From a virus: DNA of 35,110 bases. Location: positions 1 to 35,110 of the IMG/VR virus record IMGVR_UViG_3300044823_000422. The stretch is one strand, 5' to 3'. The position numbers were made by a program, and so were the translations under genes. Positions within the stretch are counted from its first letter, which is position 1; the number at the start of each line of letters is the position of its first letter. Under the pieces are notes generated by a model, which ran no database searches, had not been told where the DNA came from, and worked only from the letters and a program-made list of their open reading frames with translations. Shown here piece after piece: positions 2,880 through 21,592 of this stretch.

Positions 2880-2883
2880 CCCC

Positions 2884-2913: not shown

Positions 2914-2919
2914 GGAACG

Positions 2920-3747
2920 ATGAAAGTAAGTCCTCGCGTAAAACTTCCGGCTTTCACACTGATTGAATTGCTGGTGGTCATATCCATTCTCGGCATCATG
3001 GCGGCGCTGACCGTGCCGGTGCTCAAAAACTTCGCCCAATCGGATTCCACCCTGGGAGCCTCACGCCAGTTGCTCGACGGCGTTGCCCGCGCGCGGCAAC
3101 TGGCCGTCAGTCACCACACCACCGTTTACATGATTTTCGTGCCGGTGGATTTTTGGAACTACACCAACGGAACATGGCCTAACGGCTGGTGGACCAGTCT
3201 GACCCCGGCGCAGCAAGCCGCCGTTTCCAATCTGTGCGACAAGCAATTGACCGGGTACAACTTTGTCAGTTTGCGCCCGGCAGGGAACCAGCCCGGTCAG
3301 GCAACCCCCCGCTATCTCGATCAGTGGCAGACCCTGCCCGATGGGATGTTTGTTGCCGTGACGAAATTCACCGAGTTGCCTTCCCAATTCTATCCCGTCA
3401 TTGATCCGGTTTCCGGCGCGGTTTTTGATATTTATGGTTTCCACAATCTCCCCATTCCCTTTCCCACAGCGGACGCGCCGCCCGTCCCCATGCCTTGCGT
3501 CGCGTTCAATTATCTCGGCCAACTGACGGATGATGGCCAGGCCGTCGCCGGCGCGGACGAATACCTTCCGCTGGCCAAAGGCAGCGTCATTTACGCCAAG
3601 GATGCCGCCACCAAAACTTTCAAATTCAATTCCCCGGACGTGCTGGAAAGTCCGCCCGGTAACAGCATTGATTCCTCGTACAATATCGTTCACATTGAAC
3701 GCTTGACGGGCCGCGCTTTCTTGGAGTTCCAAAAAATTAACCACTAA
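2920..3747 (+). CDS. prepilin-type N-terminal cleavage/methylation protein (GspH/FimT-like pseudopilin)
   Basis: The 275-residue product begins with a short basic leader (MKVSPRVKLPA) followed by FTLIELLVVISILGIMAAL, a classic type IV prepilin/pseudopilin signal. Cleavage is expected before F12, and the conserved glutamate E16 is at mature position 5. The next segment (SRQLLDGVARARQLAVSHH) resembles the GspH/FimT helix and the remainder is a large beta-rich domain (WNYTNGTWPNGWW, YNFVSLRPAGN). Such proteins are exported to the inner membrane and enter type II secretion or pilus-like fibres. Proteins of this style are very abundant in PVC bacteria and unusual in phage genomes. The start at 2920 is fixed by the promoter six bases upstream; longer in-frame starts would lie inside the previous gene. 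It is followed 24 bases later by a secreted protein gene. Confidence 0.8.
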   Translation: MKVSPRVKLPAFTLIELLVVISILGIMAALTVPVLKNFAQSDSTLGASRQLLDGVARARQLAVSHHTTVYMIFVPVDFWNYTNGTWPNGWWTSLTPAQQAAVSNLCDKQLTGYNFVSLRPAGNQPGQATPRYLDQWQTLPDGMFVAVTKFTELPSQFYPVIDPVSGAVFDIYGFHNLPIPFPTADAPPVPMPCVAFNYLGQLTDDGQAVAGADEYLPLAKGSVIYAKDAATKTFKFNSPDVLESPPGNSIDSSYNIVHIERLTGRAFLEFQKINH

Positions 3748-3771: not shown

Positions 3772-4863
3772 ATGAAAACATCAAAGTTAAATATCGGCCT
3801 CGTGTGCCTTGGCGTCTTTGTCACCGCTCTGGTTCGAGGGGATTCCTATAGCGGCACAAATCTTTGGCTTGAAATCACGGGAAGGAGCAACCAGCTATTC
3901 TCCTTCAATATTCATAACACGCCCCAGTACCAATACTACGAGATTCTTGCCAAAACCGATTTGACAAGCCCGGTTTGGATTCCGACGGGTGCGTTTTACG
4001 CTACTCCGGTAAACGGAGTGGTATCCCTTCTCAATCAAGACGAAAGTTGTTATTGGTGGGCAAACAGTGAATGTTATTGGGTAGCGGCTGGGTCAATGCC
4101 CAAGACCTTGTATTTCAGGGCCTGTGCAGGGAATGCAGACCTTCGTTTTTACCCCTGCAACGGCACTTATATTCTTGGTCAGCCCCCCTCCACAAACATG
4201 CCGGGTCAAAGTCTGACCTTCAACATTGATTCCGACAAAATGCCGGCCCCCCTCCCGGTAAATTTCCAACTGATCGGGTCCGCAGTTAATGGCCTTGATT
4301 ATTCCATCACGGGAATGCAAGTGGTCGGATCAACCGGGTCAATGGTTATTCCTGCCGGGGCTAATTGGTCCTCAAACATTGTCATCACCCCGCTGCCCGG
4401 CAAAACCAACGGGATTTCAACAACGCTGACAATTGCAATGGCTTTGGGGAGCAATTATGTTTTCGATTTGGGGAATGAAGCAATTTCACTGATTTTTACC
4501 AATAAATACACCAATACAATCCCTGTTATTATTACCAATATTTCGCCGAATCCTTTTGACATGACCACAACCAATCCCATCACGATTCTTGGTTCCGGTT
4601 TTTTCCCCGCGCTTAACATGGAAATTCATGTTGAAGATGCTCTTGGCGGAATGGATTCAGACGGTTACTGGATGAAAGCAACCCTTGTCAATTCCGGGGA
4701 AATGACTGCCGTTTATGGCGGGTCCGGCAATGGCGTCGTGGGACCGAGTCCCGGCCCGATGCTTGTCTATTACCAGGACGCGACCGGAAAACAGTCCAAT
4801 GTTCTTAATGCCATAAGAACAAACACAATCGTAGTTCTCACTAATGAAGTGCCACAAATTTAA
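3772..4863 (+). CDS. secreted protein with C-terminal IPT/TIG-like domain
   Basis: The 363-residue product has an N-terminal signal peptide (MKTSKLNIGLVCLGVFVTAL, cleavage likely near VRG/DS). The first ~130 residues (NLWLEITGRSNQLFSFNIHN, YYEILAKTDLTSPVW) resemble verrucomicrobial secreted beta-sandwich proteins. Residues ~252-350 form an IPT/TIG-like beta domain (ISPNPFDMTT, ILGSGFF, VYGGSGNGV, LVYYQDATGKQSN) closely matching the C-terminal half of the tail-module gene at 30997-31548. The gene is A/T-richer than its neighbours, which suggests separate origin. AGGAAAAGAAAG lies upstream of the ATG. It is co-transcribed with the pseudopilin-like gene and closed by a terminator. An adhesin or receptor-masking role is inference. 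Confidence 0.75.
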   Translation: MKTSKLNIGLVCLGVFVTALVRGDSYSGTNLWLEITGRSNQLFSFNIHNTPQYQYYEILAKTDLTSPVWIPTGAFYATPVNGVVSLLNQDESCYWWANSECYWVAAGSMPKTLYFRACAGNADLRFYPCNGTYILGQPPSTNMPGQSLTFNIDSDKMPAPLPVNFQLIGSAVNGLDYSITGMQVVGSTGSMVIPAGANWSSNIVITPLPGKTNGISTTLTIAMALGSNYVFDLGNEAISLIFTNKYTNTIPVIITNISPNPFDMTTTNPITILGSGFFPALNMEIHVEDALGGMDSDGYWMKATLVNSGEMTAVYGGSGNGVVGPSPGPMLVYYQDATGKQSNVLNAIRTNTIVVLTNEVPQI

Positions 4864-8306: not shown

Positions 8307-8984
8307 ATGGCTGTCCGGTTGAAATCACGTCGTGAATGTCCGCCCAATGGGTTTTTAGTCACCATCGGCGCGGTGAACCAAAAAGAACCACGCCAATTCT
8401 GGAATTTCACCGAGGCGGTGGCCTGGTTTCAGTCTGTCGCCGCCAGCAACCCCGGTTTGCAACTGCCCACGGACCCCGCCGTCATCGGCAACTTCATTGA
8501 CCAGCAAAATGCGCTCCGCTGTCTGGCCATCCCCGGCGCGGACGCCTATGTCGTGAAAGGAGGGCCGGCCCATGTGGAAACAAAAAAAGCGACCCTCCTA
8601 AAGCCACTCGTTGTTGTGGGGGATAAACTGCGGCAACTCTCTGCCGGCGTTTCCTTGCTCGAAGAATGGCAGGCCCAGGGCTATCCCACCGTGCCCGCCA
8701 CCGAAGCCACTCGCCGCGCCGTCATCTGTGCCACCTGCCCCCAAAACGGCCTCGGCGATCTCACCCGCTGGTTCACCATCTTTGCCAGCGAACAAATCCG
8801 CCGCCGCATCGCCAACGTGCAAAAACTGGAACTGAAAACCCCCTCCGATGACCAGCTTGGCATTTGCGAAGCCTGTTTGTGCCCGCTCAAACTCAAGGTC
8901 CATGTCCCCCTGGCCAATATCAAAAAGCATCTGACCCCGAAAACCTCCGCCGCCCTCGACCCCCGCTGCTGGATTTTAAAATAA
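8307..8984 (+). CDS. cysteine-rich protein, unknown function
   Basis: The 225-residue product has an N-terminal domain of mixed structure (FLVTIGAVNQKEPRQFWNF, EAVAWFQSVAAS). Its C-terminal half carries CATCPQNGLGDLTRW and CEACLCPLKLKVHVPL with a final DPRCWIL, which together offer about six cysteines for one metal site. I recall similar phage proteins with C-x2-C-x-C-x-L-x2-K-V near the end but know of no function. It ends one base before the start of the glycosyltransferase cassette and so may be co-transcribed with it. Confidence 0.65.
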   Translation: MAVRLKSRRECPPNGFLVTIGAVNQKEPRQFWNFTEAVAWFQSVAASNPGLQLPTDPAVIGNFIDQQNALRCLAIPGADAYVVKGGPAHVETKKATLLKPLVVVGDKLRQLSAGVSLLEEWQAQGYPTVPATEATRRAVICATCPQNGLGDLTRWFTIFASEQIRRRIANVQKLELKTPSDDQLGICEACLCPLKLKVHVPLANIKKHLTPKTSAALDPRCWILK

Positions 8985-8985
8985 C

Positions 8986-10422
8986 ATGCTTTGCGTTTTT
9001 CCAGTCTATGCCGGGGACGCCTTTTTGCTGCTCAACCTCCTGCGTTGGATCAAACAGCTTGGCGGCTGTCCCGGGCACTCGGCCCTCATTGTCGCCGATG
9101 CCGGCCTGCCCTGGAACCATGCCGAAGATATTATCACCCTGGTCAGCGAAAGTTTCGACCACACCGACTTTATCACCAACGGCCAGTCCGTCGCCGGCTG
9201 GATTCCCGGCAGCAACTCGCTCTGGTACACCGCCGCCAAATTTTGCGCCACCGACGTTGTCGGCTGGCTCTGGCTCGAACCGGACGCGGTCCCGTTGAAA
9301 CCCGGCTGGCTCGACGCCCTGGACCGCGCCTACGATGGCACCGTCAGCGATTTTCTCGCCAGCATCTATTCCTGCAACCGTTTGGATTGCCCGTTGACCA
9401 TGATGACCGGCGTGGCCGTTTACCCCGACAATGCCATTGCCTTTTACAAGGACGTGGTCGAAGCGTTCGACGTGCAACTGTCCCGCACCGCCATTGATTT
9501 CGTTGAGGACACCCACCTCATCCAACAGTTTTGGGGCCAGCCCGGGTTGCCCCCCACTTTCCGTCCAACCAAAAATGGCGCGCCCCTTCATGCCTTCACT
9601 CTGGCCGATCTCAACCCGGAAGCGGTTCTGTTTCACCGGAACAAGGACGGCACCCTCATCGAACTGCTCCGCGCCCAGGCCGGCATCCCCGCGCCGCCGC
9701 CCCTCCTGGTGGCCCTGCCCGTCTGTGTCAAGGACGCGGCCATCATGGTCAAGGCCCTCGATTGGATGGTGGAACTCGATGGTCAAAACCAGTTTGACTG
9801 CCTCCTTTCCTACGACCCCACCCTTGGGCCGGTCTGGCTGTCCCGCTTGCGCGAGTCCGCCAGCCGCGCTTTTCGCACCGTCCATGAATTCAGCTACCCC
9901 CGCCCGGTGCGCGAAATCTGGCCGGACGCCTGCAACATTTCGTTCCAATCCACGGCGCACCACATCCAGGCCATCCATCACCGGCCCTGGCTCTGGTTCG
10001 AGGCCGATTGCGTCCCGCTCAAACCCGACTGGTTGCCCGCGCTCTGGCTCGAATACCAGAATTGCGGCTACCCGGTCATGGGGCCAATCATCCCCGAAGC
10101 CGGCCACATGAACGGCACGGGCCTTTATCCGGCCAATTTCGCCAACCTCTCCCCCCGGGCCATGTCCGCCGTGGAAGTTTCCTGGGACACGTCCATGACC
10201 CCCGATCTGGTCGGCAAGGTCCACGATTGCAGCCGCCTGTTTTGCCACCGCTGGGGCATGGTGGATGGCCAGCTACACCTCTCGTCCGGCCCGCCCGCGC
10301 ATTTTTCCACCACCCTCTCCGTGGACCTGTGGATTCCGCCCGAGGCCGTTCTGTTTCACCGCTGCAAAGACGGCTCGCTCGTTGACCAACTCCGCGCTAA
10401 AAAAGCACTCCATGACCACTGA
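8986..10422 (+). CDS. tandem-duplicated GT-A-like glycosyltransferase
   Basis: The 478-residue product consists of two copies of a ~240-residue unit. Unit 1 has WLWLEPDAVPLKPGWLDAL (residues 95-113) and unit 2 WLWFEADCVPLKPDWLPAL (335-353). Each unit ends similarly: PEAVLFHRNKDGTLIELLRA (211-230) and PEAVLFHRCKDGSLVDQLRA (about 452-471). The E-P/A-D-(A/C)-V-P-L motif lies where GT-A enzymes carry their metal-binding acidic motif, but it is not a canonical DXD, so one or both units may have altered chemistry. The protein is predicted to be cytoplasmic and to transfer sugars onto a glycan or other acceptor. It overlaps the next gene by 11 bases and leads the cassette. Confidence 0.75.
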   Translation: MLCVFPVYAGDAFLLLNLLRWIKQLGGCPGHSALIVADAGLPWNHAEDIITLVSESFDHTDFITNGQSVAGWIPGSNSLWYTAAKFCATDVVGWLWLEPDAVPLKPGWLDALDRAYDGTVSDFLASIYSCNRLDCPLTMMTGVAVYPDNAIAFYKDVVEAFDVQLSRTAIDFVEDTHLIQQFWGQPGLPPTFRPTKNGAPLHAFTLADLNPEAVLFHRNKDGTLIELLRAQAGIPAPPPLLVALPVCVKDAAIMVKALDWMVELDGQNQFDCLLSYDPTLGPVWLSRLRESASRAFRTVHEFSYPRPVREIWPDACNISFQSTAHHIQAIHHRPWLWFEADCVPLKPDWLPALWLEYQNCGYPVMGPIIPEAGHMNGTGLYPANFANLSPRAMSAVEVSWDTSMTPDLVGKVHDCSRLFCHRWGMVDGQLHLSSGPPAHFSTTLSVDLWIPPEAVLFHRCKDGSLVDQLRAKKALHDH

Positions 10423-11221
10423 AATTTTCATCTGTACTTACGTCAAGGATTTTTCCTACCTCAAGTATTGCCTCCGGTCCATTGCCAAATCCGCCACGGG
10501 CTTTGCCGGCCTCACCATCCTGGTGCCCAAGGAAGATCATGCCGGCCTGGTCAGTCTCGTGGCCGAAGTCGCCGCCTTCAAACCCCTGCCTTGCCCCGTC
10601 CAGCTGCTCGCGGGCGATGAATGGCCCGGCCTGGGCATGGTCTGGCACATGAACCAAATCATGCACGCCGACCAGTTGTGTCCCGCTGCCGACTTTATTG
10701 CCCACCTTGACCCGGACTGCGTTTTTACCGGCCCGGTCACCCCCGAAACTTACATCGTGGCCGGCAAGCCCATTCTCCGCTTTGAAAATTTCAACTTCAT
10801 CGGCTTCCGCCATCCCGGCGTGATCCGCTGGCAGGAAGCCACCGCCAGATGTCTGCCGTTCCCCGTCCATTACGAAACCATGCGGTGTCACCCGGAAGTT
10901 TATCATCGCGCCCTCTACGCCGCCGCGCGCCAGCAAATGGAACAAAAGACCGGCCAGCCGGTCCCCGATTACATCCGGTCCCAACGCAACGAATTCCCCC
11001 AAACCTTTTGCGAATTCGTCACCCTGGGCAACGTGGCCATGCACCTGTTCCGCGAGCAATATCACCTCGTCGAACAGTTCGATGACCACACCACCCCGCC
11101 CAACCATTTGCAACAGTTCTGGTCCCACGGCGCGCTCGACCAATACTGGGAAATATGGGTCGGCGGGGAAAAGAAAAGCACCAGCCCCATAGCCGTGATG
11201 AAAGAACTTGGATTGACATGA
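10412..11221 (+). CDS. DUF6492-like glycosyltransferase
   Basis: ATG 10412 is preferred because it lies within the end of the previous gene; the longer frame would run through it. The 269-residue product begins FICTYVKDFSYLKYCLRSI, as DUF6492-type glycosyltransferases do. It has an acidic motif in a strand-turn context (FIAHLDPDCVFTGP, ~residues 94-107) and IVAGKPILRFENFN. The family belongs to the GT-A fold. Its C-terminal region (NLHLFREQYHLV-like, then FWSHGALDQY) is helical. The end overlaps the radical SAM start as ATGA, so it is coupled. Confidence 0.7.
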   Translation: MTTEIFICTYVKDFSYLKYCLRSIAKSATGFAGLTILVPKEDHAGLVSLVAEVAAFKPLPCPVQLLAGDEWPGLGMVWHMNQIMHADQLCPAADFIAHLDPDCVFTGPVTPETYIVAGKPILRFENFNFIGFRHPGVIRWQEATARCLPFPVHYETMRCHPEVYHRALYAAARQQMEQKTGQPVPDYIRSQRNEFPQTFCEFVTLGNVAMHLFREQYHLVEQFDDHTTPPNHLQQFWSHGALDQYWEIWVGGEKKSTSPIAVMKELGLT

Positions 11222-11973
11222 TTACCCTCGAAAAATGCGAAGTGAACATCACCCGCCACTGCAACAACCATTGCGCGGCCTGTAATCACGGCTCCCCCTT
11301 CGCGGACCCGTACTACATGGACCCGGAAGTCTTGCGGCGCGATCTGGCCGTGCTCTCCCCCTTCCTGCATCTCGGGTTTTTTTGTCTGCAAGGCGGGGAA
11401 CCCCTCTTGCACCCCCGGCTCATCGAACTCATGGACGTGGCCATGAATTCGGGCATCGCCGACAAGTACGGCATCCTCTCCAATGGCCGGTTGCTGTCCT
11501 CAATGCCGGAGGCGTTCTTCCAAAAAGCCGGCCAGATGAAATGCGAACTGCGCGTCTCGGCCTATCCCAACCTCGACCGGACCACCCTCGTCGAACCCAC
11601 CCGCAAAGCCGTCCAGTACGGTTTTGAAATCCGGCCCGGGGGCATTGAATCGTTCCAGAAATTATTCCGCGAACAACCGGATGGCGGCGTCACCATTTGG
11701 AGAATTTGTCCCTGGAAAAATTGCTACACCGTGCATGAAGGCTGGTTCTTTCATTGTCCGCTGGCCGCGTTTTTCCCGGAACAGTTTTTCGGGCTGCCCC
11801 GGAACACGGACGGCCTTCCCCTGGCCGGCCTGACCGAAGCCACACTCGCCGAATTTCTGGCCCGGACCATTCCGCTGAAAACTTGCACACATTGCAATGG
11901 TGCCAGCGGCACCTGGATTGGCTGGCATCAGGTTTACAACCGCGACCAATGGATCAAGGAGTCAACCGAATGA
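11218..11973 (+). CDS. radical SAM enzyme
   Basis: The 251-residue product has the radical SAM cluster motif CNNHCAAC (Cys15, Cys19, Cys22; C-x3-C-x2-C), which binds a [4Fe-4S] cluster and S-adenosylmethionine. It is followed by GGEPLLHPRL (~residues 59-68), the usual SAM-binding GGEP motif. The C-terminal part has further cysteines (ICPWKNCYTVHEGW, FHCPLA, CTHCNGA), reminiscent of an auxiliary-cluster (SPASM-like) region. The start at ATG 11218 overlaps the previous stop; the longer frame starts inside the neighbour. Similar enzymes occur in polysaccharide clusters, where they modify sugars or peptides, but the substrate here is unknown. It is coupled to the first methyltransferase by ATGA. 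Confidence 0.85.
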   Translation: MITLEKCEVNITRHCNNHCAACNHGSPFADPYYMDPEVLRRDLAVLSPFLHLGFFCLQGGEPLLHPRLIELMDVAMNSGIADKYGILSNGRLLSSMPEAFFQKAGQMKCELRVSAYPNLDRTTLVEPTRKAVQYGFEIRPGGIESFQKLFREQPDGGVTIWRICPWKNCYTVHEGWFFHCPLAAFFPEQFFGLPRNTDGLPLAGLTEATLAEFLARTIPLKTCTHCNGASGTWIGWHQVYNRDQWIKESTE

Positions 11974-12626
11974 GCCTGGCTAAAACCATTTCCCAAAAAC
12001 TTCTTCCCGGCGTTGACCCCTACACCGGCTTCCCCGCCGCCCAATGGGGCGGTTACGAAAACGTGGATGGCTCGACCCGCGCCATTTTCGAGCGGTCCAT
12101 TGACCTCTGCCAGCCGGGCGTCATCATCGAAGTCGGCACGTTCCTGGGCGGCAGCGCCCTCCACATGGCCGGCCTGTGCAAAGCCAAACGCCTGGACGCC
12201 GCCATCATCTGTGTGGATACCTGGTACGGCGGTTTCGACCACTGGACCAAGGCCCGCGAGAAGCTGCACTACCACTTTGGCCGGCCCGCGCTCTATTACG
12301 AATTCGTTTCCAACGTCATCAAGTACGGCCATCAGGACATGATCATCCCCTTGTGCCTCGATTCTGCCAACGCCGCGCGTTACCTGACGGCTTGCGGCAT
12401 CACCGCCCGGATGCTTTACATAGACGCCAGCCACGAGCCAGGCGATGTCATGCGCGATTACGAAGCCTATTACCCGCTCCTGTCCCAGGGCGGCGCGTTT
12501 CTGGTGGATGATCTCACCAACTGGTTTCCCGGCGTGGTGTCGGATTGGGAATCCTTCACCCGTGCCCGCAACCTGCGCGACCTGGCTCAGGTCGAAGGCG
12601 AGAAAGGACTGATCATCAAACCATGA
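11970..12626 (+). CDS. class I SAM-dependent methyltransferase (Methyltransf_24-like)
   Basis: The 218-residue product has motif I IIEVGTFLGGSALHMAGLC (~residues 52-70), an acidic motif II (IICVDTWYGG) and the characteristic YIDASHEPGDVMRDYEAYYP followed by GGAFLVDDL. This places it in the Methyltransf_24/CmcI-like class I group, whose members often methylate sugars or small molecules, with a metal bound at the D-A-S-H region in some cases. The acceptor is unknown. The start is fixed by the ATGA overlap with the radical SAM gene. Confidence 0.85.
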   Translation: MSLAKTISQKLLPGVDPYTGFPAAQWGGYENVDGSTRAIFERSIDLCQPGVIIEVGTFLGGSALHMAGLCKAKRLDAAIICVDTWYGGFDHWTKAREKLHYHFGRPALYYEFVSNVIKYGHQDMIIPLCLDSANAARYLTACGITARMLYIDASHEPGDVMRDYEAYYPLLSQGGAFLVDDLTNWFPGVVSDWESFTRARNLRDLAQVEGEKGLIIKP

Positions 12627-13237
12627 ACCTCACCTTTGCCGACCCTTTGGAAACCGCCCTCAATGCCGCCCTGAACGGGCACGAAATCCAGCAACACGAA
12701 TGGGAACTGCGCGAGTTTTTCTCCAGGGTGCTGGCCGAATTGAAACCGCAACGCACCGTTGAACTCGGCACCTACAAAGGCTGGATGGCCATGCTCTTGA
12801 GCCACGTCACCACCGGGCAAACCGTTTCCCTGGACATCCACGATTACGGCACCCAGGACGCGCGTTCTTATGGCCACAACCTGGCTCTGGTCATTGCCAA
12901 TGCGTGTAACCCCGCCACCCCGCAACAGATTGTGGACACAAACTTTTCCGGCCAGCCCATTGACCTGTTGTTCATTGATGACGGCCATTATTACGAGGAC
13001 GATGTCGTCGAATTCAAAATCTGGAAACCAATGGTCCGGCCCGGGGGCTGGATTTGTTTCCACGACATCAACCCGCTCGCCAACATCGGCCCGCACGGGG
13101 TGCAACCGCCCGAATGCCAGACCGCCAGGTTCTGGCAGGAATTGACCGGCAACAAAGAAGAAATTATCGCCACGGAAAAACATAAAATATTTCGCGGGCC
13201 GATCCCCCACGGCGGCATTGGCATCCTCCGCGTATGA
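12623..13237 (+). CDS. class I SAM-dependent methyltransferase, second copy
   Basis: The 204-residue product carries TVELGTYKGWMAMLLSHV (motif I, ~residues 45-62), a SAM ribose-binding acidic strand (VSLDIHDYG) and LLFIDDGHYYEDDVVEFKIW with GGWICFHDI. It is in the same group as the preceding gene but the two differ in sequence, so they probably have different acceptors. The start at ATG 12623 overlaps the upstream stop. The C-terminus (KIFRGPIPHGGIGILRV) is beta-like. Its end overlaps the next glycosyltransferase as ATGA. Confidence 0.85.
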   Translation: MNLTFADPLETALNAALNGHEIQQHEWELREFFSRVLAELKPQRTVELGTYKGWMAMLLSHVTTGQTVSLDIHDYGTQDARSYGHNLALVIANACNPATPQQIVDTNFSGQPIDLLFIDDGHYYEDDVVEFKIWKPMVRPGGWICFHDINPLANIGPHGVQPPECQTARFWQELTGNKEEIIATEKHKIFRGPIPHGGIGILRV

Positions 13238-13962
13238 CGGCCTGGCTTTATTGCATTTGCCGCAACGAGGCCCGGCTCATGCCGTACCTGTTGCGGCATT
13301 ACACCACCTTCGTTGACAAACTGATTTTCTACGACGACCAAAGCGATGACGGCACGCGCCAGTTGATCCAGTCCTGTCCCCAGGCCGAACTGCGCGACTG
13401 GCCGGGTTCGCATGGGATCGTGGATGACGAATTCATGGACTTTGCCAACCAGCAATGGAAGGAAGCCCGGGGCAAGGCCCACTGGGTCATCTGGATTGAT
13501 GCCGATGAATTCATTTATCACCCCCAGATTGTCGAAGTGTTGGACCGCCTGTTGGCAGCGGGGGTGGACCTGCCCCAGCTTCACGGCTACACGATGGTTG
13601 CCGACCATTTCCCCACTACCACCGGCCAGATTTACGACGAAATCAAAACCGGCTTCTATGACGAAGCCTGGTCCAAGCCGGCCATTTTCCGGGCCGACAT
13701 GAAATGGAATGTGGGCCGTCACAGTTACGATCACGTCGCGGTCAAGCTCCGGCTGAGTGACCAGGTCGAATTGAAACTGCTGCACTACCGCTGTCTGGGC
13801 ATGGATTATTTGCGCCAGCGGCACGAGCGGAATTGGGACCGCGTCCCCGACCGCTGCCGCCGGCTTGCTTACGGAACCAACTGCGCTCCCGACCAAACCG
13901 GCCATCATACCGTCACCTGGTTCGATCAAATCTCCAAAAGTAAATTCCCGGAAATTATATGA
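13234..13962 (+). CDS. GT2-type glycosyltransferase
   Basis: The 242-residue product begins WLYCICRNEARLMPYLLRHY, then shows IFYDDQSDDGT (residues 34-41 hold DDQSDDGT) and WVIWIDADEFIYHP with the metal/sugar-nucleotide site at Asp88-Ala-Asp90. These are the elements of an inverting GT-A, family 2-like enzyme of the Glyco_tranf_2_4 type. It is closely paralogous to the gene at 14663 with the same spacing of motifs. No membrane segment is present, so it acts in the cytoplasm. Both ends are coupled by ATGA. Confidence 0.85.
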   Translation: MTAWLYCICRNEARLMPYLLRHYTTFVDKLIFYDDQSDDGTRQLIQSCPQAELRDWPGSHGIVDDEFMDFANQQWKEARGKAHWVIWIDADEFIYHPQIVEVLDRLLAAGVDLPQLHGYTMVADHFPTTTGQIYDEIKTGFYDEAWSKPAIFRADMKWNVGRHSYDHVAVKLRLSDQVELKLLHYRCLGMDYLRQRHERNWDRVPDRCRRLAYGTNCAPDQTGHHTVTWFDQISKSKFPEII

Positions 13963-14666
13963 ATGCCAAACCCGTCTGTGTCTCCACCTGGTGTGACGCC
14001 CGTAAACATTTCAGCGCCTTTCAGGAAACCGCCAGGCGCAACGGCATTGACCCGCAAAATGCCGACCCCGAATTGTGGCCGGGCCGCGAGTGGTACGAAA
14101 TCCCCTGGTGGCGCAAGAGCGATGCCCAGGCCCGCTTTGTCCGCGCCCATGCCGCCGAGTACACCCACTTCCTGTTTTGCGACAGCTACGATATTTTCTT
14201 TGCCGCCGGCTGGGACGAAATCCTCGCCAAGTACGAAGCCCTGAACAGCCCCATCGTCTTCGGCACCGAACGCTATTGCTGGCCGAAATTGGAACAAGCC
14301 GGACTTTACCCGCCATGCCCGTACCCCACCCGTTTCCTCAACGCCGGCATGTGGCTCGCCACCACCGAACACGCCTTGAAACTGGCCGAAATCCTGGCCG
14401 CGCGGGCCAGGGAAAACGCCGACCCGGCCAAGGTAAACAAACAGTGCGACAGCGGCATTTGCGTTGACCTGTTTTTGTCCAGGCAACTGCCCATCGCCCT
14501 GGACAACAAATGCTCGCTGCTCTACTGCTGCAACATGGATTCGATGGACCATTTAACCCTTGAGAATGGCCGGATCAAGGCGGTGGAAACCGGCGAAAAT
14601 CCCTGCCTGTTCCACGGCAACGGCAATGCCAATGTCAGCAAGCTCTATCCGTGGTTGAAATTATGA
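13959..14666 (+). CDS. PLOD-type glycosyltransferase
   Basis: The 235-residue product shows HFLFCDSYDIFFAAGWDEIL (acidic S-Y-D motif, ~residues 69-88), RFLNAGMWLATTEHA, CDSGICVDLFLSRQL and a late LFHGNGNAN. This order is that of the procollagen galactosyltransferase/lysyl hydroxylase (PLOD) glycosyltransferase domain, a GT-A fold enzyme, as found in many large phages and algae-infecting viruses. In animals it modifies hydroxylysine; in phages the acceptor is usually unknown. It lies between two GT2 paralogs and is coupled on both sides. Confidence 0.75.
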   Translation: MNAKPVCVSTWCDARKHFSAFQETARRNGIDPQNADPELWPGREWYEIPWWRKSDAQARFVRAHAAEYTHFLFCDSYDIFFAAGWDEILAKYEALNSPIVFGTERYCWPKLEQAGLYPPCPYPTRFLNAGMWLATTEHALKLAEILAARARENADPAKVNKQCDSGICVDLFLSRQLPIALDNKCSLLYCCNMDSMDHLTLENGRIKAVETGENPCLFHGNGNANVSKLYPWLKL

Positions 14667-15388
14667 CCGTCGCCGTTTGCAGCCTGTGTTACAACGAACG
14701 CGCCATCCTGCCATTTTTCTTGCGGCACTATGCAACCATTGCCGATGAAATCAACGTCTGGGATGACCACAGCACGGACGGCAGCCGGGATATTTTAAAG
14801 GCCCACCCCAAAGTCGTCCTCCACGACTGGCCGCACAATAACGGCATTGCCGAGGATTATTTCCTCGAACATTGCTACCAGACCTACCCCCAGTTTGCCG
14901 GCCTCGCCGACTGGGTCATGTGGCCGGACCTGGACGAATTCCTTTATCACCCGCAAATGGCTTCGGTCCTGGCCGATGCCAAAAAGGCCGGGCACAAGGT
15001 TTTGGCCAGCCTTGGTTTCAACATGGCCAATCAGGGCTTGCCCCCCGATGACGGCAAGAGTCAGATTTACGACCTGGTCAAACTGGGCGTCCTCGCGCCG
15101 GTTTACGGCAAACCCGTCATCTTCCAACCAGATTCCGCCGTTCGCTGGGATCGGGGCAAACACCATCTGGAAAGTCCCCAGCCGGCCCATGACGCCGGCA
15201 TTAAATTGCTGCATTACCGTTACCTGGGCTACGAATATACCAAGGCCAAGAACGCCAAAAATTACGCCCGCTGCGGCCTCCTGACCGGCGACAAGGGCGC
15301 GGCCTGGTCCTGTTCCCCAAACTACACCGGCGAACATTCCGCCGACTGGTCGGAAAAAATGTTGAAACTGGCCTTCCCGGTGATCTAA
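14663..15388 (+). CDS. GT2-type glycosyltransferase, second copy
   Basis: ATG 14663 is preferred to the in-frame GTG at 14651 because it overlaps the preceding stop as ATGA. The 241-residue product repeats the pattern of 13234: VCSLCYNERAILPFFLRHY, WDDHSTDGS and WVMWPDLDEFLYHP with Asp89-Leu-Asp91. It continues KLLHYRYLGYEYTKAKNAKN, matching KLLHYRCLGMDYLRQRHERN of its paralog. Clear local duplication has therefore occurred, with the PLOD-type gene between the copies. Its stop is followed by 12 bases before a small gene. Confidence 0.85.
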   Translation: MTVAVCSLCYNERAILPFFLRHYATIADEINVWDDHSTDGSRDILKAHPKVVLHDWPHNNGIAEDYFLEHCYQTYPQFAGLADWVMWPDLDEFLYHPQMASVLADAKKAGHKVLASLGFNMANQGLPPDDGKSQIYDLVKLGVLAPVYGKPVIFQPDSAVRWDRGKHHLESPQPAHDAGIKLLHYRYLGYEYTKAKNAKNYARCGLLTGDKGAAWSCSPNYTGEHSADWSEKMLKLAFPVI

Positions 15389-15400
15389 CCTCTCACCACC

Positions 15401-15604
15401 ATGAGAACATTTAAATTGGATTGCGTTGACTGGAATGAGATACACGTAAAATTTAACGTGTTTGATCCGCGTGGTGCGGCTTGCGGCTTGCTGACCATCA
15501 GCCGCGCGGACGTAATTAACTTTGTCAAATATAGTTGGAAAGGCAACATCTTCTGGCACGGCAAGATGCCGGAAGATGTCGTCATGTCCGCACATGGATT
15601 ATGA
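15401..15604 (+). CDS. small protein in the cassette, unknown function
   Basis: The 67-residue product (MRTFKLDCVDWNEIHVKFNV onward) looks like a small alpha/beta protein with a KGNIFWHGKMPED segment. It is preceded by CTCACCACC and overlaps the next gene as ATGA (15601-15604). No domain is recognised. Its position within the coupled cassette makes it likely to be real. Confidence 0.6.
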   Translation: MRTFKLDCVDWNEIHVKFNVFDPRGAACGLLTISRADVINFVKYSWKGNIFWHGKMPEDVVMSAHGL

Positions 15605-16242
15605 TTATCGTTTCCTCCTTCCGCCCCTTTGAAACCTGTTCCAACATCGTCTGGTTGCAACAGGAAGCCGCCAACCGTTCCTGGGTCCGCCTCTTTGACC
15701 GGATTTTTTATTTCAACCATTCCGACACCCGCATGAAGTCCGCCAAAACCGCCTTCCTCCCCACCAACGGCAAACCGGCCATCAAAAAACTGGCCGCGTT
15801 TTGTGGCGGACTCAACGACTGGTCCTGCCTCGTCAATGCCGACATCGTCATCCCCCAAAACTTTCGCCGCGTCGAAGAAGCCTTGCGGGGCCAGCCCGCC
15901 GGCTGCGCCGTCAGCCGGCGTTACACCCTGCCTGCCGATGGCGACACCGCCACCGCCCGCCTCACCGACCTGGGCCTGGACTTCTTTGCCGCCACCAACA
16001 CCGTCTGGAAAGCTGTCGCCGAAAAAATCCCCGAAGGGTTCTGTTTGGGCCGCACGAAATGGGACAACTGGGTGCTCAACTTTTTCATGGCCGAATTCGG
16101 CAACCATTGTTACGACCTCACCAACTCCCGCGTCGTGTTCCATCCCATGCACGAGGACCGGGCCGACCAGAACTGGGACTATCCCAAAGACGATCCCTAC
16201 CTCAACAAAAACAACTGGCCCTTCCACGCCATTGAAATATGA
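15601..16242 (+). CDS. glycosyltransferase-like protein
   Basis: The 213-residue product begins MIIVSSFRPFE and contains SCLVNADIVIPQNFRRVEEA, where NADI takes the place of a DXD motif (~residue 78). It then has AVSRRYTLPADG and DLGLDFFAATNTVWKAVAEK. The pattern is that of short GT-A-like proteins that describe a sugar-binding strand-helix unit. Length is short for a complete transferase, so it could be a minimal or helper enzyme. It is coupled on both sides and is the last glycosyltransferase-like gene in the cassette. Confidence 0.6.
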   Translation: MIIVSSFRPFETCSNIVWLQQEAANRSWVRLFDRIFYFNHSDTRMKSAKTAFLPTNGKPAIKKLAAFCGGLNDWSCLVNADIVIPQNFRRVEEALRGQPAGCAVSRRYTLPADGDTATARLTDLGLDFFAATNTVWKAVAEKIPEGFCLGRTKWDNWVLNFFMAEFGNHCYDLTNSRVVFHPMHEDRADQNWDYPKDDPYLNKNNWPFHAIEI

Positions 16243-16646
16243 AATTGCGCCCCTTGGTTTTAACCGAAACTGAACGCGCCCTGATCCGTCAGGTCATTGA
16301 CCATGCCGCACATCACGTCCTCAATCGCTCACGAATTGAAAAAATAATCGCCGGAAAAGAAGAACCCCCCGGCAATACCCCGGAATTTACTTGCGTTATT
16401 CCACTGGGTTATCGGTGCGTTTTTACTTTGGAGGAACAGCCCCCCGGCATTTGCCGACACTTATCCATCAGTGTGTTGGGTGAGGGAGCCGCGCCGAATC
16501 CCGAAGCCGTTGAAGCCTTGGCCACCGAATTCGGTTTCCGGGGCGGGTTGACGGAAATGGACGCCGTTTATCCCGAAACAATTGCCAAAAACAAATGTGC
16601 GGTCAACTTGGTGCAATCATTTGATGCAATCAGAAATGTTTCGTGA
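16239..16646 (+). CDS. conserved-type phage protein, unknown function
   Basis: The 135-residue product has a helical N-terminus (RALIRQVIDHAAHHVLNR) followed by CVIPLGYRCVFTLEEQPPG, CRHLSISVLGEG and a helix-strand end. I recall this arrangement (IPxGYRxVFTxExQPxGxxRHLSxS) from unnamed phage proteins near structural genes; no function is known. It is coupled to the glycosyltransferase-like gene upstream by ATGA and to the next gene by GTGA. Confidence 0.65.
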   Translation: MKLRPLVLTETERALIRQVIDHAAHHVLNRSRIEKIIAGKEEPPGNTPEFTCVIPLGYRCVFTLEEQPPGICRHLSISVLGEGAAPNPEAVEALATEFGFRGGLTEMDAVYPETIAKNKCAVNLVQSFDAIRNVS

Positions 16647-16990
16647 AAGTCCTGGGTAAAATCTTTCCTGCCTCTATGGATGTTGCTTTCGCCACCGGGT
16701 ACATCCATTTTATTACGCCCCAGGGCGTAGATGGCTTGGTCAAGGTTCGCGCCCCCCGGCTGGACATCCTTTTTATTGGCACGAGTCATCCCGGCTCTGG
16801 CCAGTTCCGCCACTTCATCAAACAAGCCAAAACCGAATTCGACACCATCTGTATCTGGGAAATCTGGTCCGACCTTTTAATGATCATCCTGCCCCGTTAC
16901 GGCTTCGAGCCGACCACAGACGTTCAGGATGGCGTGCATCTCACCGGCTTCCGCTGGGATAAACCTTCACAAGTCCCATTGGTCCCATAA
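16643..16990 (+). CDS. GNAT-like small protein, unknown function
   Basis: GTG 16643 shares GTGA with the previous stop and gives 115 residues. The region IGTSHPGSGQFRHFIKQAKT is reminiscent of the acetyl-CoA-binding turn of GNAT proteins, and ILPRYGFEPT resembles their late RxGF motif; the fold assignment is tentative. The C-terminal residues (QVPLVP) and the stop codon are encoded by GTCCCAT 9-mer repeat units. It is the last gene before the portal promoter. Confidence 0.6.
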   Translation: MKVLGKIFPASMDVAFATGYIHFITPQGVDGLVKVRAPRLDILFIGTSHPGSGQFRHFIKQAKTEFDTICIWEIWSDLLMIILPRYGFEPTTDVQDGVHLTGFRWDKPSQVPLVP

Positions 16991-17053: not shown

Positions 17054-19441
17054 GTGGAATTCACCCATGCTCAAGCCGTCGAGCAAGTAGTCTGGCAAAT
17101 GCGTTTGGCCGACTGGCCACGCGCCCAAAATCGCGCCCGGATCAACAATCTGGCCAATGGCTGGCCCCCCTACGACGAGGCCGAAGTCGCCGCCAACAAG
17201 ATCGCCGTCAACTACAACGACCTCTCCCTTTCCAACATTTCCCACGCCGCCCGCCGCCAGTTGTCCAATGCCCTCATCACCCCCGACCCGCTGTTCACCG
17301 TGGAACTCGATTACGGCCCGGTCTGGCAGCGCCGCGATTGGGCCGGCATCATCCAATCCAAGCTCAATCGCATCATCCGGGGTTCATTGCCTTACCTCGA
17401 AACCCGCCGTAGCGTCTTTGCCCTGTTGTCCCTGCACGGCATCGCCCCGTCCTCTTGGGAAGATACTCATGCCTGGTGTCCCGAAGCCGATGGCGTCGAA
17501 GATATTCTCGTCCCCTCCAACACCCTGCTCTCGCTCAAAAATCTCCCCTTCCTCGCCCGCTTCCGTCAATACACCGGACGCGAGTTGTGGGAAATGACCC
17601 ACCGGCCCCAGGTGGACCCCGGCTGGAACGTGTCCCTCGTCGAAAAGGCGGTCAAGTGGGTGGACCAACAGGCCAAACAACTTCTCTCCGCCTCCTGGCC
17701 GGAAACCTGGTCCCCGGAAAAAATGGAGGAACGCATCAAACAGGACGGCGGCCTCTATTCGTCCGATGCCATCCCCACCGTGGATTGCTTTGAATTCCTG
17801 TATTGGAATGATGAGGGAAAACACTCCGGCTGGCGCAAAAAAATCATCCTCGATGCCTGGGGCGAACCCGGCGTCGGCGGCGTGGGCGGTATAAGCATTA
17901 ACACGAGCGGCAGTAAAACCCCCGGCAAGTACGGCGTGTGGAATTTTGACAAGTCGGAATTCCTTTACGATTCCGAGGAACGCGCCAACCCGGTTTTTTG
18001 CGAGAAGCTCAACCAGACCGTCCATTTTCAGTTTGCCGATTGTTCCTGTGTCGCCCCGTTCCGTTATCACAGCGTCCGCTCCCTGGGCTTTTTGCTCTAC
18101 TCCATCTGTCACCTGCAAAACCGCCTCAACTGCAAGTTCGACGAAGCCACCTTTGAATCCCTCATGCAGTATTTCCGCGTCACCAATTCTGCCGACGCCG
18201 AACGCGCCTGGAAAGTGGACCTCACGGATAAAAAAGCCCTGCCCGATGGTTTGCAATTTGTCAAACGCGATGAGCGGTGGGAAGTGGATGCGCAGCTCAT
18301 CACGATGGCCCTCCAAAAAAACCGGCAGATGATGGCCGATAATTCCGCCTCGTTTACCCAGGACTATGACCTGGAACAGGGCGAGAACGAAACCGCCACC
18401 CGCACGATGGCCAAGGTCAACACCAGCGCCGCCCTCGTCAGCGGCATGTTGAGCCAGGCTTACAACTACCAGAAATTCCAGTACGACGAAATCTGCCGCC
18501 GCTTCTGCCTCCGCAATTCCCGCGATCCCGACGTGCGCAAATTCCGGCTGTCCATTTTGCGGGCCGGCATCCCGGAAGAAGCCCTGAACATTGACCGTTG
18601 GAACGTCCAGCCCGTCCGGGTCATGGGGGCCGGCAATAAAATGCTCCAATCCGCCATGATGGATAAAATCATGGTGCTCTACTACAACAAGCTTGATCCG
18701 TCCGCCCAGCGCCATTTCTTGCGCCTCGGCCTCGCCGTCACCACCGACGATTACGAACTCGCCCGCCAATCCATCCCTGACGAGCCGGTGATTAGCGATT
18801 CGGTCCACGACGCCGAACTGGCTGCCGCCGCCCTCTTAATGGGCCTGCCCGTCTCGCTCAAGGAAGGCGTCAACCATGCCGAGTACGTCGAACGCCTCTT
18901 GCTGGCCCTGGCCATCAAGACCCAGCAAATCGGCAAGCGCGGCACCCCCATCACCCCGGACGAACTTAACGGCCTGCAAAACCTGGCCGGGGAATCCATC
19001 CAGGGCCAGCCCATCCCCGGCAATGGCGTGCGCAATCACCTGACCCTCCTGGCCGAAGACGAAAAGCCGCTGCACGTCAAGGGCGTGCCCCCGGATCATT
19101 CCGTCAAGGAAAAGGTCAAGAAATACTCCGATGCCCTCGCCAAAGTGATGAACCAGGTCAAGGCCCTCGCGCAACGCGCCGCCCAGGCCGCCCAGAAACA
19201 AAAAGGCCGGAACGGCGGCGGACTCGACCCCGAAACCGCCACCAAACTGCAAGGCCAGATGATCCTGAACAAGGCCAAGGCGGACAACGCGCGCGAGTCA
19301 CACGCCCAGCGTACCGCCCAGCGCCAGATTCAATTCGAGCAGCAGATGCAACAGGACGCCCAGAAACATGTACAGGACCTTGCCGCCGACCGGATGGAAC
19401 AAATGTTCAAGTATGGCAATAACGATGCCTCAACCAACTAA
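17054..19441 (+). CDS. phage portal protein
   Basis: The 795-residue product is the right size for a podovirus-type (P22-like) portal. It has an early RxxNLANGWPPYDE segment, NKIAVNYNDLSLSNISHAAR, a central core with FRYHSVRSLGFLLYSICHLQ and NRLNCKFDEATFESLM, and a helical C-terminal region rich in Q, A and K (~residues 680-795) fitting the barrel/crown. Portals form the dodecameric gate for DNA packaging. GTG 17054 is the first start after the promoter. The TAA stop runs directly into CTCAACC repeats. Neighbouring head genes support the call. Confidence 0.8.
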   Translation: MEFTHAQAVEQVVWQMRLADWPRAQNRARINNLANGWPPYDEAEVAANKIAVNYNDLSLSNISHAARRQLSNALITPDPLFTVELDYGPVWQRRDWAGIIQSKLNRIIRGSLPYLETRRSVFALLSLHGIAPSSWEDTHAWCPEADGVEDILVPSNTLLSLKNLPFLARFRQYTGRELWEMTHRPQVDPGWNVSLVEKAVKWVDQQAKQLLSASWPETWSPEKMEERIKQDGGLYSSDAIPTVDCFEFLYWNDEGKHSGWRKKIILDAWGEPGVGGVGGISINTSGSKTPGKYGVWNFDKSEFLYDSEERANPVFCEKLNQTVHFQFADCSCVAPFRYHSVRSLGFLLYSICHLQNRLNCKFDEATFESLMQYFRVTNSADAERAWKVDLTDKKALPDGLQFVKRDERWEVDAQLITMALQKNRQMMADNSASFTQDYDLEQGENETATRTMAKVNTSAALVSGMLSQAYNYQKFQYDEICRRFCLRNSRDPDVRKFRLSILRAGIPEEALNIDRWNVQPVRVMGAGNKMLQSAMMDKIMVLYYNKLDPSAQRHFLRLGLAVTTDDYELARQSIPDEPVISDSVHDAELAAAALLMGLPVSLKEGVNHAEYVERLLLALAIKTQQIGKRGTPITPDELNGLQNLAGESIQGQPIPGNGVRNHLTLLAEDEKPLHVKGVPPDHSVKEKVKKYSDALAKVMNQVKALAQRAAQAAQKQKGRNGGGLDPETATKLQGQMILNKAKADNARESHAQRTAQRQIQFEQQMQQDAQKHVQDLAADRMEQMFKYGNNDASTN

Positions 19442-19893: not shown

Positions 19894-20267
19894 ACATCAC
19901 CATCAAAGTCATCCCCCACACGGAACAACGCTACCCCACCGCAGGGGATTGGTTCTATAACGGTCAGGATTTGGAAATTCACGTTTCTAAATTGTCCGAC
20001 TGGCGGCATGAAATGCTCGTCGCCGTCCACGAACTTTACGAGGCGTTGCTCTGTGAACACGATGGCGTCACCCAACAGGCCGTGGACGATTTCGATAAAG
20101 CGTATGAAGCCAACCGGGACCGCGACGACGACTCCGAACCCGGCGACTCCCCGAAAGCCCCCTATCGCCGGCAACATTTCCGCGCCACCAACATTGAACG
20201 CCAGATGGCCGATGCCCTCGACGTGAATTGGCAGGAATATGAGGCCGAATTAAACGCCCTGCCTTGA
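19890..20267 (+). CDS. HELYE-motif conserved phage protein
   Basis: The 125-residue product contains DWRHEMLVAVHELYEALLCE with HELYE (~residues 47-51), suggesting a short metal-binding or protease-like motif; the second metal ligand is not certain. I recall such proteins (W-x2-E-x-LVAxHEL-x-E...FDxxYE) from many phages near head genes, function unknown. The sequence DDFDKAYEANRDRDDDSEPG follows, then a basic end. The start is coupled to the previous gene by ATGA. Confidence 0.65.
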   Translation: MNITIKVIPHTEQRYPTAGDWFYNGQDLEIHVSKLSDWRHEMLVAVHELYEALLCEHDGVTQQAVDDFDKAYEANRDRDDDSEPGDSPKAPYRRQHFRATNIERQMADALDVNWQEYEAELNALP

Positions 20268-20281
20268 TTCGTCCCATCCCC

Positions 20282-21592
20282 ATGCCCGAAGATTTTTCCA
20301 GCAAAACCTGTCTCGTCTTTGACCACGGCTTCTTCCTCCCCCTGGCCCGCCGCCTCGCTGAATCCTTTGGCCGGGTACTCTACTACACCCCTTGGGAAAA
20401 GGGTTACCCGATCCTGAACGAAGGCATCATCGGGGCCGGGTTTGGCGACCTCATCCGCTGTAACGATTTCTGGCCGCTCAAAAAGAGCATTGACCTGTTT
20501 GTGTTCCCGGACATTTATCATGCCGGCTTGCAGGCCGAATTGCGGTCCCAGGGCTGTCGCGTCTGGGGGGCCGGGGCCGGAATGAAACTGGAACTCGACC
20601 GCGAATTTTTCCTGAAAAAACTGGACGAGCTTGGCCTGGCCGTCGCGCCCCACAAACGCATCGTGGGCCTCACCGCCCTGGCGGAATACCTCAAGGACAA
20701 AACCGACCAGTACATCAAAGTCTCCCTGTGGCGCGGGTCCTGGGAAACCAAACACTGGCGTAGCTGGGCGGAAGATGCCGACAAACTGGACCTCTGGGCC
20801 GTGCGCCTGGGCGGCCTCAAGGAACACGTCCCCTTTCTCGTGTTCAGCGAAATCAAAACCAAACTCGAAATCGGCGGCGATACCTACTCTGTGCATGGAC
20901 AATGGCCGGCCTTTATGTTACACGGCATTGAAAAAAAAGATGAAGCCTACTTTGCCGCCGTCACGCCCCGGCGCGAAATGCCAGAAGAACTTACGCATAT
21001 TCTGGATTCATTTGCGCCCTTTCTGGCCGAGAATCGTTATGCGGCCCAGTGGTCTATGGAAGTCCGCGTCACGGACGACGAAGCTTTCTTCATTGATGCC
21101 ACCACGCGCGGCGGCCTGCCCTCCACCGCCTCTTTCCTGAGTGCCAAAAACATTCCCGAAGTCCTCTACCACGGCGCGGACGGGGACCTCGTTGAAATTG
21201 ATTACGGCTACAAGTTTTCCGCCGAGTGCATGGTTAAAATCCACGGCGAACCGGATGCCTGGGCCTCGATGATCCTGCCCCCGGAACTTGATCCCTGGTT
21301 CAAGGTGTCGGATTGTTGCCAACTGGACGGCAAGCTTTGGTTCCCCTCGGACGGCAACAAACCCATTGAAGAAACCGGCTGGCTCGTCGCCCTCGGGGAC
21401 ACCCCCACCGAAGTCGCCCGCAAAATGAACGAACTGGCCGACCAACTGCCCGATGGGGCCGAAGCCAGCGTTGAGAGCCTGGCCGATATCCTCCGCGAAA
21501 TCACCGCCGAGGAAGAAGCCGGCATCAAGTTCACCGACCAGGAAATCCCCCCGCCCGAAATCGTCCTCGAAACCTCAACGGTCGGCGAGTAG
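20282..21592 (+). CDS. ATP-grasp domain protein
   Basis: I prefer ATG 20282 over the in-frame TTG at 20264 that would overlap the previous stop. The 436-residue product reads CLVFDHGFFLPLARRLAESF then VWGAGAGMKLELDREFFLKK, typical of the ATP-grasp region around the central helix. It has VSLWRGSWETKHW in place of the Lys/Gly-rich strand, and later YAAQWSMEVRVTDDEAFFID, TTRGGLPS. This is close to phage proteins labelled phosphoribosylglycinamide synthetase C-domain-like. ATP-grasp enzymes ligate a carboxylate to an amine or similar nucleophile; the substrate here is unknown. It lies in the head module. Its end overlaps the minus-strand neighbour by 18 bases. Confidence 0.7.
   Translation: MPEDFSSKTCLVFDHGFFLPLARRLAESFGRVLYYTPWEKGYPILNEGIIGAGFGDLIRCNDFWPLKKSIDLFVFPDIYHAGLQAELRSQGCRVWGAGAGMKLELDREFFLKKLDELGLAVAPHKRIVGLTALAEYLKDKTDQYIKVSLWRGSWETKHWRSWAEDADKLDLWAVRLGGLKEHVPFLVFSEIKTKLEIGGDTYSVHGQWPAFMLHGIEKKDEAYFAAVTPRREMPEELTHILDSFAPFLAENRYAAQWSMEVRVTDDEAFFIDATTRGGLPSTASFLSAKNIPEVLYHGADGDLVEIDYGYKFSAECMVKIHGEPDAWASMILPPELDPWFKVSDCCQLDGKLWFPSDGNKPIEETGWLVALGDTPTEVARKMNELADQLPDGAEASVESLADILREITAEEEAGIKFTDQEIPPPEIVLETSTVGE

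Follow-up and report, generated by a model that had tools for sequence, protein, structure and literature searches.

Gene content of the cassette

The window analyzed here is the whole 35,110-nucleotide stretch (positions 1 to 35,110) of IMG/VR virus record IMGVR_UViG_3300044823_000422, and the element in question is a block of glycosyltransferase (GT), radical S-adenosylmethionine (SAM) and methyltransferase genes at 8986 to 16990, lying between a conserved gene that we call the 8307 gene and a portal-like gene. We regard this block, with high confidence, as a sugar-transfer and sugar-editing cassette that sits in an exchangeable slot. Gene order was re-read from the DNA and gave twelve open reading frames (ORFs) on the plus strand (Table 1). 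Nine of the eleven junctions are 4-base overlaps, the tandem GT gene (tGT) and the DUF6492-like gene overlap by 11 bases, and a gap of 12 bases separates GT2b from the small ORF behind it. The first-pass annotation of this DNA, which described twelve same-direction genes mostly linked by overlaps, is thus borne out.

TABLE 1 Genes of the slot and its two borders in the window
Feature	Position	Strand	Basis
Left slot border, conserved 225-aa gene, Cys pairs near C-terminus, no assigned function	8307..8984	+	
tGT, predicted tandem GT-A glycosyltransferase, two related halves	8986..10422	+	Profile, predicted model, ExD motifs
DUF6492-like glycosyltransferase	10412..11221	+	Pfam DUF6492, subthreshold
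Predicted radical SAM enzyme, C-terminal Cys motif (twitch-like, by eye)	11218..11973	+	Pfam Radical_SAM
MT1, Methyltransf_24 methyltransferase	11970..12626	+	52.7 bits; RMNT_CmcI 31.5 bits
MT2, Methyltransf_24 methyltransferase	12623..13237	+	54.1 bits; RMNT_CmcI 27.4 bits
GT2a, Glyco_tranf_2_4 glycosyltransferase	13234..13962	+	54.3 bits
PLOD-type glycosyltransferase	13959..14666	+	GT_PLOD 74.7 bits
GT2b, Glyco_tranf_2_4 glycosyltransferase, GT2a paralogue	14663..15388	+	57.1 bits
Small ORF, 67 aa, uncertain gene	15401..15604	+	Weak DUF7585 match
GTx, predicted small GT-A glycosyltransferase, rightmost of the GT genes	15601..16242	+	Predicted model, motifs
s1, small gene, no assigned function	16239..16646	+	Relative in L007
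s2, small gene, no assigned function	16643..16990	+	Relatives in L003, L007
Right slot border, conserved 795-aa portal-like gene	17054..19441	+	Relatives in 50 IMG/VR loci

Glycosyltransferases

Ten cassette proteins were scanned against Pfam, and their bit scores were compared with the curated cut-offs. GT2a and GT2b both match Glyco_tranf_2_4 well above the cut-off of 27.5, and the protein encoded between them exceeds the GT_PLOD cut-off of 27, so that the proposed arrangement of two GT2 paralogs flanking a PLOD-type GT stands. The PLOD-type GT also matches the GT domain of LH3 (6wfv_A, E value of 3.9e-11) and has relatives in cyanophages at 25 to 29% identity. The second gene of the block had been announced as a DUF6492-like GT; the gene call holds, as does the qualified label, but the family score (20.7 bits) falls below the DUF6492 cut-off of 22.9, and we call the gene DUF6492-like only. 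Its relatives (cluster 3) are found in 14 of the 42 nonredundant relatives introduced below.

Neither tGT nor GTx has a Pfam match at an E value of 1, and searches of the PDB with their profiles returned one weak match each. Predicted models assign both to GT-A folds. The best solved match of the tGT model (pLDDT of 84.3, pTM of 0.63) is LgtC (Z score of 14.7, root mean square deviation [rmsd] of 3.4 Å, 204 aligned residues), with glycogenin close behind (Z score of 14.5), and that of the GTx model (pLDDT of 90.9, pTM of 0.88) is the fucosyltransferase WrtF (Z score of 14.2, rmsd of 3.1 Å, 179 aligned residues), while SpsA reaches a Z score of 12.4. Foldseek also places nucleotidylyltransferases, which have a related fold, high in the list for GTx. 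The tandem nature claimed for the first GT is supported by the 29% identity of its halves in profile comparison, and the model likewise agrees with the GT-like character proposed for GTx. Each half of tGT has an ExD motif (E98-P99-D100 and E339-A340-D341) that is invariant in 10 sequences and is probably the equivalent of DxD, the acidic motif for metal and nucleotide-sugar binding, so both halves may be active. GTx has invariant D81, D127, H181 and H184 across 22 sequences, with N79 nearly so (acidic motif N79-x-D81); its members in three relatives (L012, L013, and L051; relatives are designated by L numbers) are just 15 to 17% identical to the window GTx. Profile comparison among the GTs of the slot gave a clear join only between the two tGT halves, with a probability of 51 for tGT and GTy, a cluster of GT-like genes from the slots of relatives. 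No match to tGT was found in the phage-collection search.

Radical SAM enzyme and methyltransferases

The product of 11218 to 11973 is a predicted member of the radical SAM superfamily, as proposed by the first-pass annotation: it scores 34.7 bits against Radical_SAM (cut-off of 29.5), and C15, C19 and C22 (CxxxCxxC) and a GGEP motif are invariant in 4 sequences. It aligns over residues 5 to 245 of 251 with the solved chain 7wzv_A (E value of 1.5e-25), annotated as a 4Fe-4S cluster-binding domain-containing protein; we found no function for that chain, so the match leaves the reaction unfixed. The NCBIfam matches are all far under their cut-offs; among them are maturases of peptides and of cofactors as well as BlsE, which acts on sugar nucleosides. 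The phage-collection search returned one partial match, and the scan of viral_contigs found no relative. The two Methyltransf_24-type enzymes expected next to it were recovered as MT1 and MT2, both scoring about twice the family cut-off of 26.3.

The slot in related phages

In IMG/VR, the portal-like protein as query detected 9 loci, and its alignment detected 50. Eight loci (L005, L039, L041, L042, L043, L046, L048, and L050) were removed because their portal DNA was at least 90% identical to that of another locus, which left 42 relatives, or 43 genomes with the window; L019 and L044 (90.1%) were both kept. Genes were clustered by single linkage with merging by hidden Markov models, and cluster 0 (8307 gene, tGT, GT9-like genes) was split by eye. 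In 33 of the 43 genomes, the portal-like gene is preceded by the 8307 gene; in the other ten, all relatives, the left border is not within the available DNA. All 33 slots with both borders hold at least one GT-like gene, by cluster or tblastn. In L035 and L037 this call comes solely from the GTy/GTz clusters, five members of which gave no plausible family in Pfam (one chance match, Rz1, E value of 0.78), and in L038 and L040 it comes from a 27 to 32% match to tGT in ORFs read directly. Tblastn or direct reading supplied genes absent from the ORF calls: GTx in L002, the PLOD-type gene of L024, and a tGT-like gene in each of L038 and L040. The GT9 label combines cluster and inspection by eye, and a member so labeled (L008:6880-7809) matched no Pfam family.

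Several alternative contents can be distinguished. The window shares with L002, L024 (= L050), L025, and L049 the full series of tGT, DUF6492-like, radical SAM, two Methyltransf_24, Glyco_tranf_2_4, PLOD-type, Glyco_tranf_2_4 and GTx genes, with the radical SAM gene placed after both methyltransferase genes in L024, L025, and L049. A second content consists of tGT, the DUF6492-like gene, FkbM and/or Methyltransf_24 genes, and GTx (L006, L010, L015, L019, L023, L036, and L044); in L003 and L007, a radical SAM gene is present in addition. A third has a DUF5672 GT and/or GTy/GTz with Methyltransf_24 and/or a longer radical SAM protein (L009, L016, L017, L020, L035, and L037). The fourth combines GT9-like or GT2 plus GT9 genes with epimerase, RmlD-like or C-methyltransferase genes (L013, L032, L033, and L045) or, as a variant, a GT9-like gene with GTx (L012, L030, L031, and L051). 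In the most distant relatives, L038 and L040 (portal identity of 31 to 32%), the slot holds just a single-domain relative of tGT, which may represent its ancestral occupant. Members of the radical SAM cluster occur in the slots of 13 of the 42 relatives.

The cassette is therefore one of the gene sets that alternate in a slot of constant position; it is not a fixed block, and it was not acquired at random. The comparison of gene order suggested with the first annotation gave a mixed answer, as the families recur in the same slot but their combination varies. A search for five Pfam families in the 42 records placed 74 of 82 hits at most 10.5 kb upstream of the portal-like gene and on its strand, a stretch amounting to 20% of the bases; three of the remaining eight lie in the same stretch on the opposite strand, in L022. 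The 82 are hits rather than genes, some of them under the cut-off, PF00535 and PF13704 often fall on one gene, and part of this searching used 45 records (two redundant, one metagenome-assembled genome [MAG]) instead of 42.

The slots of relatives also contain epimerase (145.6 bits), C-methyltransferase (164.6), RmlD-like (53.3), TylF (178.1) and FkbM (56.4) genes, which make a sugar pathway very likely. Together with the GT folds and families, they support the earlier proposal of a block for making or editing a sugar structure. HNH endonuclease clusters (assigned by Pfam for two clusters, each represented by a single member) lie inside the slots of 11 of the 42 relatives and could drive exchange. 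In L006, genes for the ribosomal proteins bL35 (8705-8914, 72.5 bits) and bL20 (8859-9329, 124.5 bits) lie between GTx and the portal-like gene; the literature search gave nothing on point for phage bL35 or bL20.

Selection, turnover and probable exchange

Compared with L002 by the Nei-Gojobori method, the nine cassette genes other than the three small ORFs have no internal stop, and their ratios of nonsynonymous to synonymous substitution rates (dN/dS) range from 0.14 to 0.34, against 0.14 for the portal-like gene; with dS of up to 1.27, these ratios are rough. By this measure, the nine genes are intact and under purifying selection. Absence from close relatives together with disrupted frames would have pointed to random acquisition; instead, the frames are intact and the full set recurs in the relatives listed above. 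Intact frames, purifying selection and the recurrence of the same families in the same slot make the cassette more than a chance assembly.

Among four relatives with high portal identity to the window (85 to 86%; L002, L003, L006, and L007), only L002 has the complete set, the others being incomplete. L024, L025, and L049 have portal identities of 43 to 45%, and their tGT, DUF6492-like and GTx proteins are 34 to 40% identical to those of the window, while MT1, MT2, GT2a, the PLOD-type GT and GT2b reach 51 to 64% and the radical SAM protein 43 to 46%. The ratio of far to near distances is 1.36 to 2.77 for the radical SAM, MT1, MT2, GT2a and GT2b genes, with intervals under that of the portal-like gene (6.06, interval of 5.04 to 7.52). 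Lateral exchange would be the simplest reading of this turnover in content, and rate differences may play a part as well.

Proposed function and acceptor

In the pathway that we propose, tGT and the DUF6492-like GT would start or extend a short glycan, and GT2a, the PLOD-type GT, GT2b, and GTx would attach further sugars. MT1 and MT2 would O-methylate sugars, and the radical SAM enzyme would epimerize or dehydrogenate one sugar carbon; action on a peptide carbon is less likely. The acceptor would most likely be a virion protein produced at the same time, and recombination would exchange part or the whole of the pathway, so that close phage relatives would carry different sugar types. We infer the acceptor, the sugar, the order of the reactions, the time of expression, recombination as the cause, and the benefit. 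That the acceptor is a virion protein, glycosylated in the cytosol with O-methylated sugars and one sugar edited by the radical SAM enzyme, has in our estimate an even chance of being right.

A virion acceptor is preferred because of the position of the block among late genes, the soluble-looking enzymes, the glycans of mycobacteriophages (see below) and a PLOD-type GT near a tail fiber gene in a cyanophage. The cassette is co-oriented with the genes downstream, including a tail-fiber-like one (27637-28434), and across these phages the slot genes are mostly co-oriented with the late genes. In a Kyte-Doolittle hydropathy scan, eight of nine cassette proteins have no segment of 19 residues scoring more than 1.6. 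In cyanophage S-CAM9, a relative of the PLOD-type GT lies three genes after a tail fiber gene, beside two 2-oxoglutarate-Fe(II) [2OG-Fe(II)] oxygenases.

Several observations weigh against a virion acceptor or against exchange of the pathway. In the hydropathy scan, tGT peaks at 1.85. The usual acceptor of PLOD enzymes is the Gly-X-Y repeat of collagen, and no run of at least six such triplets was found in the plus-strand frames of the window; a collagen-like acceptor encoded there was therefore rejected for the PLOD-type GT. The slot genes of L022 (3634-8648, including methyltransferase and GT family hits) and L027 (4407-9296) lie on the strand opposite the portal-like gene. As for exchange, the distance ratios of the tGT and DUF6492-like genes are intermediate and overlap slightly with that of the portal-like gene, those of the PLOD-type gene (5.67) and GTx (8.96) show no downward departure from it, and in the radical SAM tree the approximately unbiased (AU) test did not reject a grouping of L003 with the window and L002 (P value of 0.338). 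MT1 and MT2 have the highest dN/dS (0.33 to 0.34), so faster evolution may explain part of the distance ratios. The window has 35 kb and its relatives reach 50 to 60 kb, so that the genome is incomplete and other parts may be missing. Finally, in the available passages of one study, ten phages gave no glycoprotein signal, one of them having a methyltransferase gene.

The main rival is that the cassette alters glycans of the host surface, acting in the cytosol on lipopolysaccharide (LPS) or lipid-linked precursors and resulting in receptor masking or superinfection exclusion. Methyltransferases of the RMNT_CmcI/TylF type, like epimerases and C-methyltransferases, are characteristic of pathways for surface polysaccharides and deoxysugars, and an uncultured phage of 735 kb has a mixed glycan cluster with distant relatives of the Methyltransf_24 and Glyco_tranf_2_4 proteins. 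However, none of the ten scanned cassette proteins, to which this search was confined, matched a flippase, polymerase or GtrA-type membrane protein at an E value of 1, the block sits among late genes, and the strong hydrophobic stretch is missing in eight of the nine proteins. We give a host-surface target about one chance in four, less than a virion protein but enough to make it a real rival.

The radical SAM enzyme and its partners might instead serve the synthesis or modification of a small molecule or peptide, the linkage to GTs reflecting a glycosylated secondary metabolite. The peptide and cofactor maturases and BlsE among the NCBIfam matches below cut-off would fit, but neither a precursor peptide nor a core gene of a biosynthetic pathway was recognized in the slot, and most slots lack the radical SAM gene whereas the GTs are constant. 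We consider this reading improbable. Slightly more improbable still is that the GTs decorate phage DNA through hypermodified bases, as virus-encoded glycosyltransferases reportedly do (Pyle et al. 2024). A DNA target is less likely because no member of the thymidylate-synthase-like (dCMP/dUMP hydroxymethylase) family was found in 24 records of more than 50 kb, in a search whose control was found in 9 of 14 genomes, the genome of the window being incomplete; a Tet_JBP search of 24 records of that length gave no hit, but its control was found in no genome, so that its outcome says nothing about a DNA target. Least probable of all is a mere hotspot of passing genes with no common role, which the HNH endonucleases in the slots of 11 of the 42 relatives and the ribosomal protein genes of L006 would suit, but which agrees poorly with purifying selection on the nine tested genes, a GT-like gene in 33 of 33 slots and a six-gene core recurring across distant relatives.

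With a virion acceptor, the locus could be seen more broadly as a serotype locus, in which virion sugar type is a recombining trait and whole glycan pathways, including radical-SAM-edited glycans, are exchanged in a slot, so far never found empty, that separates genes on the packaging side from portal-like ones. We put this forward tentatively, as somewhat less probable than the virion acceptor itself.

Comparison with known systems

Virion glycosylation of mycobacteriophages was reportedly described by Freeman et al. in 2023. Mycobacteriophage capsid and tail proteins carry glycans made by phage-encoded GTs, possibly with methyltransferases, according to the available passages of three papers (PMC12619734, PMC11256854, and PMC12894461). 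The likeness to the cassette lies in these enzymes; the glycan was shown in the mycobacteriophages, whereas here it would follow from the genes, and the passages mention neither a fixed exchange slot nor a radical SAM enzyme.

In seroconversion clusters of the gtrABC type, phage genes add sugars to the host O antigen with the help of membrane proteins. Those clusters resemble the cassette in having sugar-adding phage genes of types that vary between related phages, but no match to a family of that kind turned up among the ten cassette proteins, and the cassette lies among late genes. The likeness to PLOD/LH3 and the S-CAM9 protein is one of family score, LH3 domain match and the cyanophage identities given above; unlike those systems, the cassette has no hydroxylase partner gene, and no collagen-like run of the length searched for was found. 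Bacterial capsule and O-antigen loci also have conserved flanks between which sugar pathways are exchanged. This is an analogy of organization only, the slot being viral and far shorter and showing neither a polymerase nor a flippase. A close link between the cassette and the glycan genes of the 735-kb phage was rejected, given 23 to 30% identity and a different gene set.

A narrow, open-access-only literature search found no paper joining phage, glycosyltransferase, radical SAM, methyltransferase and virion glycosylation and none joining phage, radical SAM, glycosyltransferase, auxiliary metabolic genes and Verrucomicrobiota, and we know of no precedent for radical-SAM-edited viral glycans. 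Phage virion glycosylation and phage glycan clusters are already known; as far as we have seen, a fixed exchangeable slot with radical SAM enzymes is new. The phage group is so far undescribed, and part of its virion is probably coated with a sugar whose type differs by phage. If the slot sets this coat, phages with near-identical late genes and different slots are a natural experiment on virion glycans, through which their roles in adsorption, escape from defenses and stability could be addressed. The linked GT, methyltransferase and radical SAM enzymes are also offered for glycan chemistry, from a phage group perhaps of Verrucomicrobiota.

Slot borders, small genes and host

The gene downstream of the cassette had been named a portal gene, which we could not confirm: searches of Pfam, PHROGs and the PDB gave nothing for the protein, profile comparison linked it neither to the P22 portal nor to the head-tail adaptor of phage AF, and none of 50,697 phage records matched it. 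Synteny with the large terminase subunit gene (TerL) is the sole support, and we use portal-like throughout. In tailed phages, TerL usually precedes the portal gene, and the order TerL, 8307 gene, slot, portal-like gene on one strand is found in 14 nonredundant relatives; in 10 relatives, TerL lies downstream on the opposite strand. In the window, TerL (25642-27510) is on the minus strand, opposite to the late genes, and is 29% identical to its putative counterpart in Pseudomonas phage AF (E value of 3e-6). In L002, L012, L026, and L031, TerL is broken near residues 211 to 226 by about 1 kb of DNA through which the frame stays open (open segments of 871 to 943 amino acids), as it would with an intein. 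Rfam searches of the window and five loci detected no intron and one tRNA, in L002.

The left border, the 8307 gene, has no match in Pfam or NCBIfam. Among the small genes, the 67-amino-acid ORF scores 19.5 bits against DUF7585 (cut-off of 27.4), has no relative in the compared loci, and may not be a gene. A relative of s1 was found only in L007 among the compared loci, outside its slot, and s2 has full-length relatives in L003 and L007 and short matches in L002 and L010.

In the genome collection, the one match, at 61% identity, was on a 4-kb contig of a Pedosphaera sp. MAG. This suggests a host among Verrucomicrobiota, although the contig may be misbinned.

Other features of the window

ARAGORN predicted a 100-base tRNA-Arg (ccg) at 836 to 935 on the minus strand, which is not found by Rfam at the gathering score and may be false. 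The product of 2818 to 3747 is a prepilin-like protein with an N-terminal methylation motif (N_methyl, 22.8 bits, cut-off of 21.2). The gene adjoining it (3772-4863) and one among the virion genes (30997-31548) encode products with a similar C-terminal stretch, as seen by eye. Downstream of the portal-like gene, a conserved 442-amino-acid protein (20264-21592) appears ATP-grasp-like by eye and has no Pfam or NCBIfam match. A phage GroES/Cpn10 gene (25012-25317, 106.6 bits) lies among the late genes and is conserved in several relatives.

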